DNA of 64,000 nucleotides from Pseudovibrio exalbescens DSM 16456 (GTDB taxonomy: Bacteria; Pseudomonadota; Alphaproteobacteria; Rhizobiales; Stappiaceae), in the NCBI RefSeq assembly GCF_000422785.1, contig NZ_AUGS01000011.1:1-64000 (forward strand). Direction: 5' to 3'. The position numbers and the translations under genes were made by a program. This document shows positions 14,204 to 22,591 of this stretch, one piece after another. The notes beneath the pieces are model-generated. The model had not been told where the DNA came from, ran no database searches, and was given only the letters and a program-made list of their open reading frames with translations. Position 1 is the first letter of the stretch. Every line of letters begins with the position of its first letter.

Positions 14204-15487
14204 CTATTCTGCGGCCACATGGGCGGCAGGGGCGATTTCTTGTGCGGCATTGAGGAGGATTTGAAGGCCTTCGTGAATTTGGGTATCTGGTGTTGTCAGT
14301 GGGGCCAGCACTTTAACCACTTCATCGTGTGCGCCTGACGTCTCAATAATTAGCCCATCCTTGAAGGCTCGGCGACATATTGCTGAAGCTATATTTCCTG
14401 AACCAACGTCTAAGCCAAGCATCATGCCTTTGCCTTTTAGACGTGCGCCAGGGATGGTCTCAGCAATTCGCTTCAATCCGGTCGTCACGATTTGGGAACG
14501 TCGGTTGATGTCGTGTTGAAAGCTGTCGTTGCTCCAGAATTTCTCTATCGCGATGCGAGCTGTAACAAATGCGTGGGTGTTACCGCGAAACGTGCCATTG
14601 TGCTCTGCGGGCCCCAGAATGTCATGTTTTGGCCTCACCAACACGAGCCCCATGGGTAACCCAAATCCTGAGATCGATTTGGCAAGGGTAACAATGTCAG
14701 GAGATACGCCCATCTCCTCAAAAGAGAAGAAAGGGCCTGTGCGCCCACAGCCGGCTTGAACATCATCAATAACGAGAAGCGCTCCGTGCGTTCGAGCAAG
14801 TTCAGCGACCCCTCGCAACCAGTGATCGCTGGCTACATTCAACCCGCCTTCTCCCTGCACAGTCTCGAGCAGGATCGCTGCGGGTGCATCAAGCCCGGAT
14901 GACGGGTCTTGGAGCAGTCGTTCAAGTAACTCCAGAGATGCAGCGCCGTTAACGTAACCGTCAAATGGTAACCGTGAAATGCCACTCAGGGTGGCTCCCG
15001 CACCCGCGCGATGGTAACTGTTTCCAGTCGCGGCCAGTGCACCCAGCGTCATGCCGTGAAAGCCGTTGGTAAAGGCAATCACATTGCTGCGCCCAGTAAC
15101 CTTGCGGGCGATTTTTAAAGCTGCTTCTACAGCGTTTGAGCCTGTAGGCCCTGTAAACATGACCTTGTGATCGAGATTCCGAGATTTTAAGATACAATTT
15201 TCAAATGCTGTAATGAAGTCAGCCTTAGCCTGAGTATGCAGGTCAAGACCATGGGTGATCCCATTCCCGCTAATGTGCTCGATCAGAGCAGCCTTCATGT
15301 CCGGGTCATTGTGTCCATAGTTCAGAGCTGAACACCCAGCAAGAAAATCAATAAAACGCTGCCCTTTTGTGTCCCATAACTCTGAGCCTTGAGCAGTCGT
15401 GAAGATGGCATCAAATGTGCGACAGTAGCTTCGCACTTTAGATTCTCGACGCGAGAAAATGGTTTCAATTTCGGTCGTCTTGGACAT
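14204..15487 (-). CDS. ectB: L-2,4-diaminobutyrate:2-oxoglutarate transaminase EctB
   Basis: A 427-residue class III aminotransferase closely matching EctB: FDAIFTTAQGSELWDTKGQRFIDFLAGCSALNYGHN, TGPTGSNAVEAALKIARKVTGR, LVIDDVQAGCGRTGPFFSFE and the PLP lysine in TLAKSISGFGLPMG. It converts aspartate-semialdehyde and glutamate to 2,4-diaminobutyrate, the first step to ectoine. Unusually it is last in the cluster, 228 bp after ectC, instead of sitting between ectA and ectC. That spacer contains no gene I can support, so ectB may have its own promoter. Confidence 0.95.
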   Translation of the reverse strand: MSKTTEIETIFSRRESKVRSYCRTFDAIFTTAQGSELWDTKGQRFIDFLAGCSALNYGHNDPDMKAALIEHISGNGITHGLDLHTQAKADFITAFENCILKSRNLDHKVMFTGPTGSNAVEAALKIARKVTGRSNVIAFTNGFHGMTLGALAATGNSYHRAGAGATLSGISRLPFDGYVNGAASLELLERLLQDPSSGLDAPAAILLETVQGEGGLNVASDHWLRGVAELARTHGALLVIDDVQAGCGRTGPFFSFEEMGVSPDIVTLAKSISGFGLPMGLVLVRPKHDILGPAEHNGTFRGNTHAFVTARIAIEKFWSNDSFQHDINRRSQIVTTGLKRIAETIPGARLKGKGMMLGLDVGSGNIASAICRRAFKDGLIIETSGAHDEVVKVLAPLTTPDTQIHEGLQILLNAAQEIAPAAHVAAE

Positions 15488-15715
15488 AACTCAGTTCCTG
15501 TGTTGAATTAGATCGTGGGGCCACAGGATATGTCTTATATTTGGGGCGCCTGTTTCAGGACGTGCTTTGATCATCCATTTAGAAAATTAGATAATATTAC
15601 AGGAGATCTTGAGCATCTGTACTCGTGTCTAATATGTTGACACCGTTTCTCACCCAATTATTGTCAAGACTATCAGTCTTTTTTTCTTGCAGTTTCATAG
15701 CTTCAGCACTCGAAA

Positions 15716-16117
15716 CTACTGTGCTGCAACCTTCGCCGGTGGGTAAGCTCCGTCTTCGTCGTGGTCCTCTCGTCCGGTCACTGGTGGATTGAATACGCAA
15801 ATGGCACGAAAGGTTGTGAGCGGACGAAGCGTGTGGCGATCGTGCTTGTCGAGTAGATACATATCTCCTGGGCGGATCATATGTACTTCGCCTGTGTCTC
15901 TGTTTGTGAGCTCACACTCACCTTCAACACACAATACAGCTTCAAAATGGTGCTTGTACCAAAGATCTGTCACCGTTCCCGGGTAAACTGTGGTCTCATG
16001 GAGCGAAAAACCTACCTTGTCGTCTTCAAGTATAAGGCGCTTACTACGCCAGGTGCCCAGTGCTCCCTTGATATCTCTATCTGTATCGGTGATCCCCTCT
16101 AAAGATCTTATGATCAT
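15716..16117 (-). CDS. ectC: Ectoine synthase EctC
   Basis: About 133 residues, full EctC length, starting [30 protein letters not shown]. It is a cupin enzyme that cyclises N-gamma-acetyl-diaminobutyrate to ectoine. Core blocks include [20 protein letters not shown] and [19 protein letters not shown], with the conserved metal-binding Glu, Tyr and His context. The ATG at 16115-16117 is preceded by GGGAGAA; the longer frame from 16159 has no support. It lies 38 bp after the acyl carrier protein gene. Confidence 0.95.
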
Positions 16118-16155
16118 TTTCTTCTCCCAGTTTTGTTGAGTTTTGCATATTCGTC

Positions 16156-16425
16156 TCAAGCAGCGTCTTTTACGGATACCAAGAAGCTCGAGTATCCACC
16201 CACTGTCTCGAAATCCTTGATGTCGAGTTCTTCCGGATCCACATGGAAGCCCAGCATGTCTTCCAATTCCATGAGGGTTTCAAGCATGCTCATGGAATCG
16301 AGATGAAACTCACTGAAGAGGTTCATTTCATCGGATAATGGTGGGATCTGCTCTTCAAGAACTGAAGCTAGAGCTTTTCGGAGTTGCTCTCTTGCCTCCT
16401 GCTGCGTCAAGGGCTTGTCAAGCAT
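16156..16425 (-). CDS. Acyl carrier protein
   Basis: An 89-residue four-helix carrier protein. The phosphopantetheine attachment serine is Ser44 in [20 protein letters not shown], a clear LDSM-type site. Its start overlaps the end of the AMP-ligase gene by 8 bp, so the two are translationally coupled and the ligase almost certainly loads this carrier. It is a stand-alone carrier, not part of a fatty-acid or NRPS megasynthase. Comparable ligase-carrier-decarboxylase trios exist in butirosin side-chain biosynthesis (BtrJ/BtrI/BtrK) and in exosortase-associated loci. Confidence 0.9.
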
Positions 16426-17950
16426 AGGTTTCTATCCCCTCTGTAGTGGTCTTTTTCGCCCTTTCAGCCTCCATCAGGCTGATTAGTGCTTTTCGGTCGT
16501 ATTTGTTATTTGCAGTCCTCGGCATGTCGTCGATGAACCGCACTTTCTCGGGTAGCTTGTGGCGTTCGAGCCGGTTTGCGAGAAATGGCAGAAGGTCAAA
16601 CTCTCCACTTGGAGCGCATACAAACAGCGTCGCGGCACGGTTTTTCGCGGGAGGCACCATGACAGCGTGATGGACTTCTGGTGCTTCAGTTGCAGCGGCT
16701 TCGATTTCTGAGCAGCTGACACGAAAGCCTCTTATTTTGAAGATATCATCCCGGCGACCTTGGCAATAAAGGTAACCTTCTTCGTCCATCCATCCGTAAT
16801 CACCGCTGTGAAGGCGTGGTAGCGTTGCGTGTTGCTTTCGGTATGTTTGCTGAGTCAGGTCGTCGTCTTTCCAGTACCCGGCCATCATGTTGGCGCCATA
16901 CACCACGAACTCACCTACCTCACCTGCTGGCAAAGGAGTGCCGGTGTCGTCTACAACTTCGACACGCGTGCCTCGCAGTGGCTTTCCGCAGGTTCCCGGC
17001 CTTTGCAAGTCACCGTCTACCGGCGTAATGCTGACGCGCTTGCATTCGGTAAGCCCGTACATGAGTTGGAAACCCAGGTTCGGAAGCGCAGTGCGTAGAG
17101 TCTTGATTGACTCTGGTGAGGGTGCCCCGCCGGTATTCGTTATGAGCCGCAATTTTGGTAGACCACTTGGCTTGCGTTTGGACATCACGGCCAACGCATC
17201 TATCATCGGAGGAACCGCAGGCAGGACGTGCGCTTCACTATTCTTAAGCGCTTTGAAAAGCCCGAGGCCACCGACTTCCGGATCATCCAGCCAAAGTGAT
17301 GCGCCGCTCTCAATCGCGAGAAAGACCTGATAGAGGCCGTAGTCGAACGACAATGGCAATGCACAAAAAATCCGGTCTCCGACTCTGTAGTCAAGTGCTT
17401 CAGCGATCGCGCCGATGGAGAATGTCATTTGCCTATGCAGGCAGGTTACGCCTTTGGGACGACCGGTGGAACCTGAGGTGTAGATCATGCAGGCGAGATC
17501 TTCAGAAACGATATCAGGATCAAACTTTGTCAGCTGCGTCTGAACTACCTTAGACGGACGGTGCTCCAAGGGGTTCGGGAGATTTTGTCGTTTGTTGCCA
17601 TCGCGGGCAATCCATTTCCCGGCGACGTGAGAGATTACCAAACGTGCCTCGGAATTTCCTTCGATATAGGCCAGTTGTTCTGGAGGTGTAGAAGGATGAA
17701 CTGGTACAAAACACCCACCCACCGCGCTAATGGCATAGATGAGTACGACCGAAATGGGATCGTTTTTGGCTTGAATGATTATTCGGTCCCCGCGCTCAAC
17801 ACCTTGTTCGGATAACCAGATAGCCATTGCGTGGGCGCGCTCGGCCAACTCGGACAAGGATAGCGACACGCTATCGGTTTCGATGGCGATGCGTTCTGGC
17901 TCTGTAGTTGCGGCACGATCAAGACGTTCATGTAGTAAAGCCATAGTCAC
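16418..17950 (-). CDS. AMP-forming amino acid/acyl ligase (ANL superfamily)
   Basis: A 510-residue adenylation enzyme. The A3 loop is YTSGSTGRPKG (157-167), A5 is YGLTE (298-302), the hinge region is GRRDDIFKIRGFRVSCSEIE, and the catalytic lysine is in A10, NNKYDRKAL (Lys483). It activates a carboxylate as an adenylate and passes it to a thiol, here presumably the carrier protein encoded next. The GTG start overlaps the decarboxylase stop (GTGA); an ATG two codons later is possible. Overall form resembles the exosortase-associated ligase type and NRPS adenylation domains. The substrate cannot be read; an amino acid such as aspartate is plausible given the context. Confidence 0.9.
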   Translation of the reverse strand: MTMALLHERLDRAATTEPERIAIETDSVSLSLSELAERAHAMAIWLSEQGVERGDRIIIQAKNDPISVVLIYAISAVGGCFVPVHPSTPPEQLAYIEGNSEARLVISHVAGKWIARDGNKRQNLPNPLEHRPSKVVQTQLTKFDPDIVSEDLACMIYTSGSTGRPKGVTCLHRQMTFSIGAIAEALDYRVGDRIFCALPLSFDYGLYQVFLAIESGASLWLDDPEVGGLGLFKALKNSEAHVLPAVPPMIDALAVMSKRKPSGLPKLRLITNTGGAPSPESIKTLRTALPNLGFQLMYGLTECKRVSITPVDGDLQRPGTCGKPLRGTRVEVVDDTGTPLPAGEVGEFVVYGANMMAGYWKDDDLTQQTYRKQHATLPRLHSGDYGWMDEEGYLYCQGRRDDIFKIRGFRVSCSEIEAAATEAPEVHHAVMVPPAKNRAATLFVCAPSGEFDLLPFLANRLERHKLPEKVRFIDDMPRTANNKYDRKALISLMEAERAKKTTTEGIETYA

Positions 17951-19647
17951 ACCCCAACTTTCTTGCTGCGGTTCGGCATAGGCACGACGATCAGACCACG
18001 TGCGGTTGCTACCCGTTCCGGGGGATGAACGGCTTCAACAGATGATGACCCCGAGTTTGTGGACCTTACAGTGCGCAAAGCCTCTACTTCTACGAAACGA
18101 CGTAGCCTTTTTTGTCGGGTCACGCGCGCTCGGACAGTGATGAAATCGCCTGGCCGTGTTGGCCGAAGAAACTCGACGCTTTCCCAGTTTTGCAAAAGGC
18201 TTTCATCTCCATCTTGCACGGCGGCCAAACCGGTTACTGCATCTCCAAATAGTTTCAGGATGTGAGCTCCATCCACAATGCCGCCACCATAATGCGCATC
18301 TGAGGCTGAAAGCCGGACTGAGATTGTGAACTCCTTGTTTTGCGGAGGAAGGGGTAAGTCCCCAGGAAGTCTGTAGGCGGCGATAATATCGTTTACCTCG
18401 TCACCAGCACGCACGAGGTGCAGATCTCCACCATCAAGAAGAACTTCATTTGGATAGCCATGGCTTAGAAATCCTGTCGGTGAGGCGCTGGGGCCATATG
18501 CTCCTGAGCAAATGATCGCCAGCACATCACCTTCTTTAACGTCGCCTATGCTGGTTTTCCGAGCAATGGTGTCGCTGGGTGTGCAAAGAGGGCCTGTCAA
18601 AGTTGTTTTTTGCGATGTTTCTGAAGCATCCCGACTAAGATTCACAATAGGGAATGAACGTTTTGCAAATCCACCTACGCCTACAGCAGCCATGTGGAGG
18701 TTCGTACCTCCGTCGGCTATAGCAAAGTGCTCCCCACGCGAAACCTTGGTGTATCGCACTGTTGTCAGAAGAGCACCGCACCCGGCCGACAAGTAACGCC
18801 CAAGTTCTATTATGATGCGCGTGGACGGATTGTTGCGTTTGAAACTTGCAACTGCAGAATTTATACCGTTGGCTAATTTTTGTATGTCGAGAGGGGATTC
18901 ATTGTCGAAGTATGGCACACCAAATCCACCTCCAACATCTACAACCTCTATCGGAGTGCCGAGTGTCTTGGACAGGCGCTCCGACATATCCAATATCTTC
19001 TCTGTATTCTCGATGATTGGCTCGGCTTCCAGATATCGTGTGCCCATGTAAACATGGAAACCCATAACCCGGACGAGTGGAAGCGCGCTCAAGGTGTCCC
19101 GCAGATCAGGTACCTGTTCTATATCAATCCCGAACTGACGTGGTTTCCCGCTCATTGTCAGTCCTGATCCGCCGGTTTTAAAATCCGGATTGATCCGAAG
19201 CATGACATTAATAGGATGTCGTGCGCTCAGTTCCCCCGCTTGCTCATTGATGATTTCCAGCTCTCGGCTGGATTCTGCAACAATCGCAAATATACCAAAC
19301 CTGATGCAGTCGGAGATTTCCTCGGTGCTTTTTGCCGGCCCTACAAAAATGATGTCATTTGGATTGATGCCAACACGAATTGCCGTATGAAGTTCGGCCA
19401 GCGATGAAACCTCTGCGCCAGCTCCGCAAGACCTAAGGCAGTCCACAATCGCTGCGTTAGGGTTCGCCTTCAACGAGTAAAGCAGGTCAACAGATGAATC
19501 TATTTTGCCACGCAGGTCATTGAAGTTTTGTCGAATGTAGTCAGCGCTGTATACGAAGGCTGGCGTGCCGTATTTCTCTACTATATCCTTGGCTACTTGC
19601 TCACCAGGTACCCAGCCGCCGTTTTGATCATGGAGGTTGAAGGTCAT
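17947..19647 (-). CDS. Fusion: fold-type III PLP decarboxylase + C-terminal hotdog (ammonia-lyase-like) domain
   Basis: 566 residues from the ATG at 19645-19647, which follows AAGGAGG and overlaps the ectA stop (ATGA). Residues 1-430 are a DapDC/ornithine-decarboxylase-type enzyme: PLP lysine Lys60 in YSLKANPN, glycine loop VVDVGGGFGVPY (about 236-246), IELGRYLSAGCG, active-site Cys355 in GPLCTPSD and SGAYGPSASPTGF. Residues about 438-560 form a separate domain with SDAHYGGGIVDGAHILKLFGD and ESVEFLRPTRPGDFITV. This reads like 3-aminobutyryl-CoA (Kal) and beta-alanyl-CoA ammonia-lyases of the hotdog fold. I infer decarboxylation of a carrier-bound amino acid followed by, or balanced against, loss or addition of ammonia at the beta position. 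The fusion is not one I recognise from described enzymes. Confidence 0.82.
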   Translation of the reverse strand: MTFNLHDQNGGWVPGEQVAKDIVEKYGTPAFVYSADYIRQNFNDLRGKIDSSVDLLYSLKANPNAAIVDCLRSCGAGAEVSSLAELHTAIRVGINPNDIIFVGPAKSTEEISDCIRFGIFAIVAESSRELEIINEQAGELSARHPINVMLRINPDFKTGGSGLTMSGKPRQFGIDIEQVPDLRDTLSALPLVRVMGFHVYMGTRYLEAEPIIENTEKILDMSERLSKTLGTPIEVVDVGGGFGVPYFDNESPLDIQKLANGINSAVASFKRNNPSTRIIIELGRYLSAGCGALLTTVRYTKVSRGEHFAIADGGTNLHMAAVGVGGFAKRSFPIVNLSRDASETSQKTTLTGPLCTPSDTIARKTSIGDVKEGDVLAIICSGAYGPSASPTGFLSHGYPNEVLLDGGDLHLVRAGDEVNDIIAAYRLPGDLPLPPQNKEFTISVRLSASDAHYGGGIVDGAHILKLFGDAVTGLAAVQDGDESLLQNWESVEFLRPTRPGDFITVRARVTRQKRLRRFVEVEALRTVRSTNSGSSSVEAVHPPERVATARGLIVVPMPNRSKKVGV

Positions 19648-20198
19648 GCCATGGCCTCCTTGCGAGATGCAGCAATTGAAAGCCGCGGCGCACGTTCTAT
19701 TCTTGCGTCCTGCGGCAGACAAATACGCATGAGCATTTCATCGTGATGTTGATCATCTTCAGTCGATAACAAACTGCCTGGATACAATAATTCTTCTTCA
19801 ACCCGTCCGTTCAGGCGTTTTGCCAAGGATTTCATCAGAACGCGTATTGGTTTGTTGTCATTGTCAACCGAGGCTTCGATCTTGGTGGCACCGTTGTCGA
19901 TTTCTCTCCGAACCGCAAAATCAATCATGTCGACGCCCAGCCCAGCTACACCATGTCGATGTTTGGTTGCTGTCTGCCAAAGAAAGTATGTATCAGGATG
20001 AGTTGGGGATCTGAATCCAGTTAGAAAGCCAATGACTTCTTCGTCACGGATCGCGACGACGGAATGGGGCGCAAAGTGTGAACACCATAACGCATAGGCA
20101 TACTTGCTGTTTCGATCCAGCCGCGGAGTGCTGTCAACAAGACGAATGATGTCTTTAGCATGAGACAGACTAGGACTTTTGAACTGAATATTACTCAA
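19644..20198 (-). CDS. ectA: L-2,4-diaminobutyrate N-gamma-acetyltransferase EctA
   Basis: A 184-residue GNAT enzyme matching EctA: VDSTPRLDRNSKYAYALWCSHFAPHSVVA, then GFLTGFRSPTHPDTYFLWQTATKHRHGVAG and EASVDNDNKPIRVLMKSLAKRL. It acetylates diaminobutyrate with acetyl-CoA. It starts 54 bp after the MFS gene and its stop overlaps the decarboxylase start by four bases, tying the ectoine pathway physically to the carrier-protein module. Confidence 0.95.
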   Translation of the reverse strand: MSNIQFKSPSLSHAKDIIRLVDSTPRLDRNSKYAYALWCSHFAPHSVVAIRDEEVIGFLTGFRSPTHPDTYFLWQTATKHRHGVAGLGVDMIDFAVRREIDNGATKIEASVDNDNKPIRVLMKSLAKRLNGRVEEELLYPGSLLSTEDDQHHDEMLMRICLPQDARIERAPRLSIAASRKEAMA

Positions 20199-20252
20199 GG
20201 AACTTCCCTTTCCTGAATTACATCTATCTAAGTTTTCTCCAGTTATTGGTGT

Positions 20253-21509
20253 TTAGCTTTGGGCCTGAACTTGGGTCTTTGGGGCGTAGGAACTGGTAAA
20301 CACGACGACACAGGCCATCAGACACAGAACTCCGGAGACGTACCAAAGCGGATCGTAGTTCCCGAACACCAGCCAGATCATGCTGCCCGACATTGCCATC
20401 AGGCCGGCCCCCAACTGATGGAAAGCGTTGATCCAACCGAATATTGATGGGCCGTCATAGCCATAGACGCGATTACAGATGGCGATAATTGGAGGCACAG
20501 TTGCCACATCCATGACACCGAAGATGATGGCGAAGGTTACAATTCGGGTGTCGAATACCCCCACGAGAATGGAGGGCAACCAAAGAAGGGTTAGCGCGCG
20601 AACCAAAAAGGCGACGGTGAGTATCGTGCGCACATCGATGCGATCTGTCAGCCAACCTGAAAGCGTCGTGCCAAAGACATTGAAAATGCCGATCAACAGC
20701 AACACGGAGGAAGCTGCCGTGACGGTCAAACCGCATATGGTTGCCGCCATTGTGAAATGGCTCCACATGATGCCGTTTGTTGTCGCGCCACAAATCAAGA
20801 ACAGAACAACCAAACTCCAGAATATGCGGGTACGCATTGCGGTGAGCAGGCTTTTGAAAACTTCTTGGTAGAGGTGCGTCTTTCCAGTGGGTGCTGCGCG
20901 GTCTGGCTGATCGACGTCTTCAGGTTCGCGCAGGAACAATGCATTGATCCCTATGGCACATGCCGCAATCAGCGCGGACCCGATGAGAGGAGCCCGCCAG
21001 CCATAGAGCTGCATGACTTCAGACCAAAATGGCAAGAGGGCGAACTGGCCGAAGACGCTAGAGGCCACAAGAAAACCGGCAATTGTTCCTTGTCGGTTCG
21101 GGAACCAGGTTTTTACGATGAGGCCGCCGTAGGCCATGGTCAGGCACCCGGTTCCAATCCCGATAATGAACCCCCACACCAAATTGAAAACAACCGGTTG
21201 TGGGAACAGGACGACAAGGGACCCAGTAACAAGCATAGCAAGTGCAATGTTTGCAACCCGGGCTATACCATAGCGCCGCATGACATATATCGAGAACGGT
21301 GCTGTCAGCCCGTAAAACAGCATATTGATTCCAATGCCGGGGCCGACTGTATCGACGCCCCAACCGATTTCCGCAACAAATTCGGTCGTTAGTAGCCCTG
21401 CAAGCGTGGTGTAAGAGCCGGCGGCGATGATACTCGTCATACAGGCGATGAGAGCACCGCGCTGAGGTGCCGAAAGTGAACCCGCACGGCTTATTTTTGC
21501 AGTTGGCAT
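20253..21509 (-). CDS. MFS transporter
   Basis: 418 residues with twelve predicted helices. It carries a cytoplasmic loop between helices 2 and 3 (MRRYGIAR) and resembles the oxalate/formate-type and monocarboxylate group of the major facilitator superfamily (WGFIIGIGTGCLTMAYGGLIVKTWFPNRQGTIAGF). The start at 21509 is chosen for a GGGGA site 5 bp upstream; a TTG at 21524 is weaker. It heads the ectA operon and is divergent from the LysR gene, so it probably moves the operon's product or a precursor. The direction of transport is unknown. Confidence 0.88.
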   Translation of the reverse strand: MPTAKISRAGSLSAPQRGALIACMTSIIAAGSYTTLAGLLTTEFVAEIGWGVDTVGPGIGINMLFYGLTAPFSIYVMRRYGIARVANIALAMLVTGSLVVLFPQPVVFNLVWGFIIGIGTGCLTMAYGGLIVKTWFPNRQGTIAGFLVASSVFGQFALLPFWSEVMQLYGWRAPLIGSALIAACAIGINALFLREPEDVDQPDRAAPTGKTHLYQEVFKSLLTAMRTRIFWSLVVLFLICGATTNGIMWSHFTMAATICGLTVTAASSVLLLIGIFNVFGTTLSGWLTDRIDVRTILTVAFLVRALTLLWLPSILVGVFDTRIVTFAIIFGVMDVATVPPIIAICNRVYGYDGPSIFGWINAFHQLGAGLMAMSGSMIWLVFGNYDPLWYVSGVLCLMACVVVFTSSYAPKTQVQAQS

Positions 21510-21679
21510 AGTGTCCCCGTTCAATCAAGCAACTCACGACTCAGTGGATTTACGCAGATGAAATGACCGAGTCCCTTGACACCACTGCGTAAAGGAACGT
21601 ACTCGAACAGGACAAACTATGGTTTCTTTCGCGTGGAGTAGTTTTACTATTGAGTTGGCACAAAAGGTCGCCAGGAAGT
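21510..21679. promoter_or_regulatory. Divergent promoter region of the ect/MFS operon and lysR gene
   Basis: 170 bp between two divergent starts, the usual place for a LysR-type binding site and both promoters. No exact T-N11-A palindrome stands out by eye. Confidence 0.5.
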
Positions 21680-22591
21680 ATGCCACCACTCAACTGGATG
21701 CGAGCATTTGAGGCAGCCGCCCGCCATTCCAGCTTTAAACTTGCCGCAGATGAATTAAACGTCACACCGGCAGCAATCAGCCAACAGGTTCGCTCCCTCG
21801 AAGGCTTTTATGACGTTAAGCTGTTTGTTCGCCAGACCAGAGCCTTGGAGTTGACCCGGATTGGCAAGCTCGCTGCACCTTTGATGTCGGAAGCATTGGA
21901 TAACTTCGCCGAAGCCTGCTTTGTCATAAAGAACGATATCCAGCGTGATTGGCTTACTCTCACTGCGCCGTTCACCTTCAGTATGAAGTGGCTCATGCCT
22001 CAACTGGAAAGGTTCAACGAAGAATATCCGCAAATCGAGATCCGGATAAATGCCACCGATGACCTCATCGATCTGGCGCATGGCGAGGCCGATATCGGCA
22101 TCCGGTATGGCGATGGCAACTACCCTGATCTGGATGTGCAGAAGCTTATGGACGGGGCTTATCACGTAGTGGCAAGCCCGGACTTTCTTCAAAAGCATGG
22201 AGGCTTGAAGAGGCCGGCCGAGTTGTTGAACCACACCTTGTTGCATACGGACTGGCGCGGCAGCCCGGATTTTGTACCTAATTGGGAGATGTTGTTGAAG
22301 AGTGCGGGTGTGCCGGTTTCTGACTTGGCGGCGAGCAAGGCGCACAAATTCTCAAATGAAATGATGTCTATCGATGCGGCTGTTACAGGTTTGGGCATTG
22401 CCTTGGTCAGCCATGCAAATGTCAAAGACGAATTGAAGTCGGGGCGCTTGGTTAAGGTCTTTGAAGACTCGGCTCTCAACGCAAAGAAATTTGACTATTA
22501 CATCGTTCGTGCAAAAGATGCGGCGGGATCCAAAAGCGCTGCTATTCTACATTCTTGGCTTTGCGAGCATGCGACGAATAGTTTGGAATAA
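21680..22591 (+). CDS. LysR-family regulator (GcvA-like)
   Basis: About 303 residues from the ATG at 21680, beginning MPPLNWMRAFEAAARHSSFKLAADELNVTPAAISQQVRSLE, a GcvA-type winged helix. The effector domain follows (LTLTAPFTFSMKWLMPQLERFNEEYPQIEIRI, EADIGIRYGDGNYPDLDVQKL). It is transcribed away from the MFS-ectA operon and is its probable regulator. Its co-inducer is unknown. An upstream TTG at 21650 would add ten residues not typical of the family. Confidence 0.9.
   Translation: MPPLNWMRAFEAAARHSSFKLAADELNVTPAAISQQVRSLEGFYDVKLFVRQTRALELTRIGKLAAPLMSEALDNFAEACFVIKNDIQRDWLTLTAPFTFSMKWLMPQLERFNEEYPQIEIRINATDDLIDLAHGEADIGIRYGDGNYPDLDVQKLMDGAYHVVASPDFLQKHGGLKRPAELLNHTLLHTDWRGSPDFVPNWEMLLKSAGVPVSDLAASKAHKFSNEMMSIDAAVTGLGIALVSHANVKDELKSGRLVKVFEDSALNAKKFDYYIVRAKDAAGSKSAAILHSWLCEHATNSLE

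Follow-up and report, generated by a model that had tools for sequence, protein, structure and literature searches.

A Putative Ectoine-Type Operon with a Carrier Protein Loading Module in Pseudovibrio exalbescens and Related Clusters on Plasmids of Rhizobium and Streptomyces

INTRODUCTION

The activation of an amino acid by a stand-alone ligase, its transfer to an acyl carrier protein (ACP), and its decarboxylation in the carrier-bound state have precedent in the action of VinN and VinO and in the route proposed for bolagladin (PMC11284099, PMC7756342). Ectoine biosynthesis is associated with the enzymes EctB, EctA, and EctC, although, in one published dataset, a reported 25% of EctC proteins are located outside ect clusters or represent extra copies, with the function of such orphans described in that source as one that “is not yet clear” (PMC6344544). 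Here, we describe an operon of Pseudovibrio exalbescens DSM 16456 in which genes for the two kinds of system are combined, located in a stretch of 64,000 nucleotides (positions 1 to 64,000 of contig NZ_AUGS01000011.1, forward strand), referred to below as the window. The operon encodes EctA-, EctB-, and EctC-like proteins together with an AMP-forming ligase, an ACP, and a pyridoxal 5′-phosphate (PLP)-dependent decarboxylase fused to a hotdog domain. On balance, this operon probably directs the synthesis of an ectoine analogue whose acyl side is drawn from the carrier protein instead of from acetyl-CoA, the simplest such product being a 2-vinyl “ectoine.”

RESULTS

Organization of the operon

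The operon consists of seven open reading frames (ORFs), all on the minus strand between positions 14204 and 21509 and each with one terminal stop codon, and is accompanied by a divergent regulatory gene, as follows.

20253..21509, minus strand: major facilitator superfamily (MFS) transporter, putative product exporter, operon gene 1 (418 amino acids; PF07690, E 2e-33)
19644..20198, minus strand: EctA-like GNAT acyltransferase with an altered donor loop (184 amino acids, TTG start; TIGR02406, 117.4 bits)
17947..19647, minus strand: fused PLP decarboxylase and ammonia-lyase-type hotdog protein (566 amino acids; matches to BtrK, 4mtu, and NF052388)
16418..17950, minus strand: AMP-forming ligase, VinN-like (510 amino acids, GTG start; VinN 3wvn, E 2.9e-101)
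16156..16425, minus strand: stand-alone ACP (89 amino acids; PF00550, E 2e-8; LDSM site at amino acids 42 to 45)
15716..16117, minus strand: EctC-like ectoine synthase, a cupin (133 amino acids; NF009806, 185 bits against a cut-off of 128 bits)
14204..15487, minus strand: EctB, diaminobutyrate-2-oxoglutarate transaminase (427 amino acids; TIGR02407, 590.3 bits against a cut-off of 552.2 bits)
21650..22591, plus strand: LysR-type (GcvA-like) protein, putative operon regulator (PF00126/PF03466)

An earlier note on this DNA, made from the sequence alone, had claimed this seven-gene order (MFS, ectA, decarboxylase-hotdog, ligase, ACP, ectC, and ectB), strand, and set of overlaps, all of which were borne out by the ORF check: ectA and the decarboxylase gene share ATGA, the decarboxylase and ligase genes share GTGA, and the ligase and ACP genes overlap by 8 bp, while ectC and ectB are separated by a gap of 228 bp. 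The ligase ORF, which adjoins the ACP gene, carries an ATG codon two codons downstream of its GTG start.

Related clusters occur in two phyla

A tblastn search of 72,556 plasmid records with the fused decarboxylase-hotdog protein returned 85 records at an E value of 1e-40, a single one of which, Rhizobium gallicum pRgalIE4872a (64% identity), reached at least 80% coverage. The R. gallicum cluster is arranged in the order LysR, MFS, GNAT (EctA), decarboxylase-hotdog, ligase, ACP, and ectC, on a plasmid without ectB. On the plasmids of Streptomyces strains NBC_01208 and S501, which are likewise devoid of ectB, the order is decarboxylase, holo-ACP synthase, a separate hotdog gene, ligase, ACP, ectC, and ectA, and in strains CA-256286 and NBC_00111 it is decarboxylase, an AcpS-hotdog fusion, ligase, ACP, ectB, ectA, P450, ferredoxin, reductase, and ectC; genes for an ectoine hydroxylase and an MFS protein are located in the vicinity. 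All four Streptomyces clusters contain an annotated holo-ACP synthase gene, one of these annotations having been checked by profile. The six clusters, representing two phyla, thus bring together decarboxylase, hotdog, ligase, ACP, EctA, and EctC, with ectB present in three of the six and the hotdog domain encountered in three arrangements (joined to the decarboxylase or to AcpS, or encoded by a separate gene). Conservation of the ligase, carrier, and decarboxylase trio beside ectA and ectC, which the earlier note had posed as a test of its proposal, was found in R. gallicum and the four Streptomyces plasmids. This co-occurrence in two phyla led us to reject the view that the genes beside an otherwise ordinary ectoine operon are there by accident.

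Among the plasmid records, the hotdog domain matched 10 and EctC matched 114, and both were found in at least five records (with 60 of the 114 EctC matches listed), compared with 0.016 expected by chance (post hoc hypergeometric value of 2e-12). Because the two pairs of Streptomyces plasmids are close relatives, these five records correspond to about three independent lineages, including that of the window. As it was a plasmid collection that was searched, the location of the clusters on plasmids partly reflects how they were found.

The fused protein was found whole only in its own genome among 101 relatives, including 15 others of the genus (E 1e-60; two matched its decarboxylase part only), and again in a scan of the order at an E value of 1e-95 (397 genomes, another one of which matched its decarboxylase part only). 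The ligase was likewise confined to its own genome among 398 genomes of the phylum at an E value of 1e-85; in these latter two scans, at most three candidates were scored per genome, such that weak relatives may have been missed. The hotdog domain was detected in 5 of 385 genomes of the class, including its own, at an E value of 1e-8, and the other four were entered in the hotdog tree only. A scan of genome contigs with the fused protein yielded one distant relative, L008, with a ligase nearby and neither a hotdog nor an ect match within 21 kb, and neither a scan of viral contigs nor a megablast search of plasmids with the operon flank produced a match or a useful match, respectively. At a hotdog locus of Rhodococcus koreensis, two distant ligase-like ORFs (25 to 26%) and no EctA, EctC, or decarboxylase match were found.

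Remains of this cluster, interrupted by insertion sequences, were observed on plasmid p3 of Rhizobium bangladeshense (L078, 3007 to 10320), with MFS, EctA, ACP, and EctC pieces that are 73 to 85% identical to those of R. gallicum or the window. In Streptomyces BHT-5-2, only an MFS gene and the decarboxylase were matched within 19 kb.

The donor loop of the cluster EctA proteins is altered

The window EctA scores just below the equivalog cut-off of TIGR02406 (120.6 bits), as does that of the R. gallicum cluster (105.4 bits), whereas EctA proteins above the cut-off, present in 13 of 190 genomes, score between 165.6 and 198.6 bits and an ordinary Streptomyces EctA scores 187.8 bits. The best other ectA match in this genome does not exceed 20.6 bits.

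The six cluster EctA proteins were aligned with 12 ordinary ones from the class of the window and 3 from Streptomyces, Embleya, and Tsukamurella records; the loop counts leave out L067, a truncated row, and L029, the EctA of another carrier-linked cluster. In all 15 ordinary proteins, the donor loop carries an arginine followed by a glycine, and both solved EctA structures aligned by phmmer possess the arginine. This residue, presumably, like the loop itself, involved in CoA binding, is absent from all six cluster proteins, where the loop reads RHG[VI][AP]xLG and glycine (position 83 in the window) replaces arginine. The pattern [QR]xxGx[GA] is found in this loop in 13 of the 15 ordinary proteins and in none of the six cluster proteins. 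Residues D28, N30, Y33, W74, Q75, and N115 are among those invariant across 22 full-length EctA proteins. With the acceptor side kept and the donor side changed, the donor may be an acyl-ACP instead of acetyl-CoA, a reading with which the alignment is consistent without amounting to proof.

An EctA without the loop arginine is also encoded on plasmid pLBRS of Streptomyces M54 (L029, 5133 to 19166), near genes for an enoyl-CoA hydratase-like protein, carrier proteins, a VinN-like ligase, a decarboxylase, an acyl-CoA dehydrogenase, and an EctB-like aminotransferase; no EctC match was found there within 19 kb.

The decarboxylase carries an ammonia-lyase-type hotdog domain

The PLP decarboxylase domain of the fused protein spans approximately amino acids 20 to 426, with the lysine motif YSLKANPN at position 57, and its residues 24 to 426 match BtrK (7ru7, E 3e-80; 2j66, E 4e-80). 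The hotdog domain follows at approximately amino acids 440 to 562. When searched alone, the C-terminal 120 residues matched beta-alanyl-CoA:ammonia lyase (4mtu, E 1.5e-13), the only solved match found, and the closest NCBIfam model is that of 3-aminobutyryl-CoA ammonia lyase (NF052388). The window domain shares DAHY, V.GA, GD, and DGD.SL motifs with these beta-alanyl-CoA and 3-aminobutyryl-CoA ammonia lyases, and the motifs AHYGG, VDGA, LFGD, and DGDE are invariant across the six clusters.

Membership of the ligase and decarboxylase in exosortase A-associated families was ruled out, as scores remained below the cut-offs of TIGR03098 (296.6 against 592.35 bits) and TIGR03099 (355.4 against 478.45 bits). 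A pathway of the bolagladin type was also ruled out, since a Pfam scan of the seven operon proteins, the LysR protein, and four window neighbours detected no acyl-CoA dehydrogenase. Elsewhere, three loci (L017, L018, and L026) with long decarboxylase ORFs, which are annotated as acyl-CoA dehydrogenase in Gemmobacter and Tritonibacter and are of similar length in a Rhizobium plasmid, have ligase, ACP, KASIII-type, and hydrolase genes as neighbours and are perhaps bolagladin-like dehydro-beta-alanine clusters.

The ligase resembles VinN

The nearest solved relative of the ligase is VinN (3wvn; 342.8 bits, E 2.9e-101). In VinN numbering (offset by 16 from the solved sequence, so that the published positions are occupied by the expected Asp, Ser, and Arg), Asp230, Ser299, and Arg331 correspond to Asp203, Thr273, and Arg305 of the window ligase, and the same three residues occur in the other five clusters. 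The serine is thus not kept in any of the six, the change to threonine being conservative, and an equivalent of VinN Lys330 is present in all six.

EctC binding residues are mostly retained and ectB has more than one source

Iron-, substrate-, and product-binding residues have been published for the EctC of P. lautus (PMC6344544). Equivalents of W21, S23, R25, T40, Y52, E57, Y84, H92, and F106 are present in the window EctC, and the EctC proteins of four clusters (window, R. gallicum, NBC_01208, and S501) retain the published binding residues. The Asn38 position is occupied by histidine in these four proteins and in 17 of 17 comparator EctC proteins, and by serine in CA-256286 and NBC_00111. 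All six cluster proteins are set apart by Val44 (elsewhere Ile, Leu, or Met) and Asp118 (elsewhere Val or Thr); as a guess, the smaller Val44 might accommodate a larger acyl group.

The window EctB is the sole one above the cut-off in this genome and groups with EctB proteins of its own class (66% identity to that of L075), while those of CA-256286 and NBC_00111 group with an ordinary Streptomyces EctB, and a single clade for the three cluster proteins was rejected by the approximately unbiased (AU) test (p 2.2e-44). From these groupings, the clusters are taken to have recruited ectB at least twice, from different sources, an argument for a requirement of the pathway for diaminobutyrate, as acceptor. 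With cluster ectB genes from two sources, ectB is probably a later addition to the cluster, which the 228-bp gap also fits.

Other carrier-linked or orphan EctC genes were encountered. A second carrier-linked locus in this genome (contig C9, approximately 94 to 100 kb; L007, 8118 to 13682) encodes an EctC-like cupin with 38% identity to the window EctC, together with an AMP-binding ligase, an ACP, an acyl-CoA dehydrogenase, a transglutaminase-like protein, a DsbA-like protein, an SMR protein, and a second SMR-looking ORF, and the same ligase, ACP, EctC, dehydrogenase, and transglutaminase set is present on a Streptomyces xanthii plasmid. An orphan EctC of Rhizobium etli CIAT 652 plasmid pB (L079, 7001 to 7387) is located near saccharopine-dehydrogenase-like and D-Ala-D-Ala-ligase-like genes, and EctC matches resembling it occur in many Rhizobium plasmids.

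History of the module

The six cluster EctA proteins form one clade (support of 100/99), as do the six EctC proteins (92/92), the latter within a branch which also holds three other actinobacterial EctC proteins (98/98), a nesting that suggests transfer from Actinomycetota. The EctA, EctB, and EctC trees leave out L078 (broken), L024, L025, and L081, an unannotated Mesorhizobium record with EctB, EctC, and only a short EctA match. The earlier note had viewed the loading module as inserted into an ectoine operon, which is probably wrong, given that EctA, EctC, and the hotdog domain group across the six clusters, that the ectB genes are of two sources, and that three plasmids lack ectB.

Transporter, regulator, and flanking genes

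The window MFS protein has homologues in the clusters of R. gallicum (63%) and Streptomyces NBC_01208 (43%), while the CA-256286 MFS protein gave no match to it at 1e-3. LysR homologues (46% and 48%) adjoin both the cluster of R. gallicum and the remains in R. bangladeshense. A regulator of the ArsR type and a permease of the ArsP type, encoded 3′ of ectB, look unrelated. The operon is not set apart by base composition, with a GC content of 0.476 to 0.533 across 14 to 22 kb and 0.445 to 0.548 around it.

DISCUSSION

Proposed pathway

In the proposed pathway, the ligase would adenylate the beta-carboxyl group of L-aspartate and load it onto the stand-alone ACP, the PLP domain would decarboxylate the resulting beta-aspartyl-ACP to beta-alanyl-ACP, and the fused hotdog domain would eliminate ammonia to produce acryloyl-ACP. 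EctB would supply L-2,4-diaminobutyrate from aspartate semialdehyde, the modified EctA would pass the ACP-bound acyl group on to N4 of this acceptor, and ring closure by EctC would yield a 2-substituted tetrahydropyrimidine-4-carboxylate, most simply 2-vinyl “ectoine,” which the MFS protein is presumed to export under LysR control. The earlier note had guessed at the same succession of beta-aspartyl-, beta-alanyl-, and acryloyl-ACP, and this guess fits the nearest solved relatives, namely, VinN, BtrK, and beta-alanyl-CoA:ammonia lyase. Homology is the basis for proposing the hotdog step, and the changed loop is that for the EctA step; the EctC step is proposed from the conserved residues and from a report that EctC tolerates other ring sizes (PMC6344544). 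We infer from sequence all of the reactions, the amino acid loaded, and whether acryloyl or beta-alanyl is the group transferred; support at this level is provided by the conserved set of genes, by the way in which EctA, EctC, and the hotdog domain each group, by the absence of the loop arginine, by the residues that EctA and EctC retain, by the VinN-type residues of the ligase pocket, and by the derivation of ectB from two sources.

A bolder extension, regarded as possible although doubtful, is that 2-vinyl (acryloyl-derived) ectoines constitute a new natural-product class of electrophilic cyclic amidines, formed by an EctA using acyl-ACP and closed by EctC, encoded by mobile clusters that Rhizobium-type bacteria and Actinomycetota have in common, with further oxidation by EctD and a P450 in some Streptomyces. 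EctD has been reported to hydroxylate homoectoine (PMC6890836), which makes a hydroxylated analogue plausible in the two clusters with a P450 gene.

Alternative explanations

The carrier-fed scheme could also end differently, with EctA transferring beta-alanyl to give a 2-(2-aminoethyl) ectoine analogue and the hotdog domain being used otherwise, for example, in proofreading or hydrolysing misloaded ACP. Pathways of the VinO and BolN types do end at beta-alanyl-type ACP units (PMC11284099, PMC7756342), and the hotdog domain scores under the ammonia-lyase cut-off; yet its sole solved relative found is a beta-alanyl-CoA:ammonia lyase, and it is retained with invariant motifs in each of the six clusters, such that this outcome is considered unlikely. 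Production of plain ectoine by EctABC, with the ligase, ACP, decarboxylase, and hotdog domain making a separate acid (beta-alanine or acrylate) from merely the same operon, would agree with EctC and EctB scores above the curated cut-offs, with the retained EctC residues, and with the two Streptomyces cluster EctA proteins that pass the EctA cut-off. It agrees poorly with the window and R. gallicum EctA proteins, which do not (117.4 and 105.4 against 120.6 bits), with the loss of the loop arginine in six of six, with co-occurrence in two phyla where just three of six clusters have ectB, and with the grouping of cluster EctA proteins, and likewise of EctC proteins; we hold it to be decidedly improbable.

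The earlier note had favoured the joining of a carrier-bound unit to ectoine or its precursors. Diaminobutyrate is indicated as acceptor by the two ectB sources, and replacement of the acetyl group of ectoine seems likelier than addition to ectoine itself. A further joining of ectoine or N-acetyl-diaminobutyrate to a carrier-bound C3 unit, such as by aza-Michael addition to acryloyl-ACP, could draw on the complete ect gene set and on the reversibility, in principle, of a hotdog ammonia lyase; the clusters show no obvious candidate, however, for an enzyme that would catalyse joining as a step of its own, and the altered part of EctA is its donor-side loop, leaving this explanation with very little probability.

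Several observations nonetheless weigh against the replacement of the acetyl group by a carrier-borne acryloyl group. The hotdog domain falls below the ammonia-lyase cut-off of 160 bits in all five proteins scanned (101.8 bits in the window and 109.2 to 145.0 in the others), and the cluster hotdogs form one clade with only moderate support (85/90). Two Streptomyces cluster EctA proteins pass the EctA cut-off (139.4 and 137.3 bits), and loss of the loop arginine alone does not prove an ACP donor. The iron ligand Tyr84 is replaced by histidine in two of the six cluster EctC proteins (CA-256286 and NBC_00111; L022, 17741 to 18151, and L023, 17805 to 18200). The pocket Asp and Arg are also present in nine of nine non-cluster ligases compared and, for that reason, are characteristic of VinN-like ligases more widely, without pointing to aspartate in particular as the substrate. 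The clusters are few (six, from about three independent lineages), and no sampled relative besides the genome itself possesses the whole fused protein. Finally, the ligase and decarboxylase trees do not unite the six clusters, two changes being needed in each; the hypothesis that the whole module arose once did not gain support, the ligase tree rejecting it (AU p 0.024) and the decarboxylase tree failing to do so (p 0.081), in tests from which the long rows were left out (L008 and L027 for the decarboxylase, L008 for the ligase). That leaves either an exchange of the loading pair or the emergence of related non-ect clusters from within it.

Significance and comparison with known systems

If the carrier-fed pathway is correct, a stress-protectant route would have been turned into a natural-product route. 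The cluster also speaks to the open question of orphan EctC function and offers four or five enzymes amenable to in vitro assay.

Compared with the ectoine system, EctB and EctC score above curated cut-offs, the EctC binding residues are kept, and the window EctA retains the six invariant residues named above; the operon differs in its order (A-...-C-B instead of the usual ABC), in an EctA below the cut-off without the donor-loop arginine, and in the additional ligase, ACP, decarboxylase, and hotdog domain. With VinN-VinL-VinO of vicenistatin and FlvN-type loading, it shares a stand-alone beta-carboxyl ligase with Asp230 and Arg331 equivalents, a stand-alone ACP, and a PLP decarboxylase, whereas it contains no polyketide synthase or methylaspartate mutase, has threonine at Ser299, and possesses a hotdog domain and EctA/EctC instead. 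The conversion of aspartate through isoaspartyl-ACP to beta-alanyl-ACP would be the same as that proposed for bolagladin (BolO-BolC-BolN-BolQ), in which desaturation by an acyl-CoA dehydrogenase and a nonribosomal peptide synthetase take the place of the ammonia-lyase-type hotdog domain and ectoine enzymes. Unlike beta-alanyl-CoA and 3-aminobutyryl-CoA ammonia lyases, the cluster hotdogs are fused to a decarboxylase or AcpS, or located beside them, and presumably act on an ACP thioester.

The earlier note had likened the trio to butirosin BtrJ/BtrI/BtrK and to exosortase-associated loci. The butirosin likeness fits the decarboxylase, which is BtrK-like and would act on a carrier-bound amino acid, while the ligase is nearer to VinN, and scores against the exosortase models fall below their cut-offs. 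The butirosin system is glutamate based, BtrJ is a different type of ligase, and ect genes are not known to be involved. The note had also known of no described pathway of such composition, and among the matches listed in the openly licensed literature, we found no description of the combination and none for acryloyl-ACP, vinyl ectoine, or BtrK with ectoine. The proposed pathway would, to our knowledge, be the first whose ectoine ring enzymes accept an acyl group from a carrier. The enzymes all belong to known families, and it is their combination, together with the predicted product, that appears to be new.

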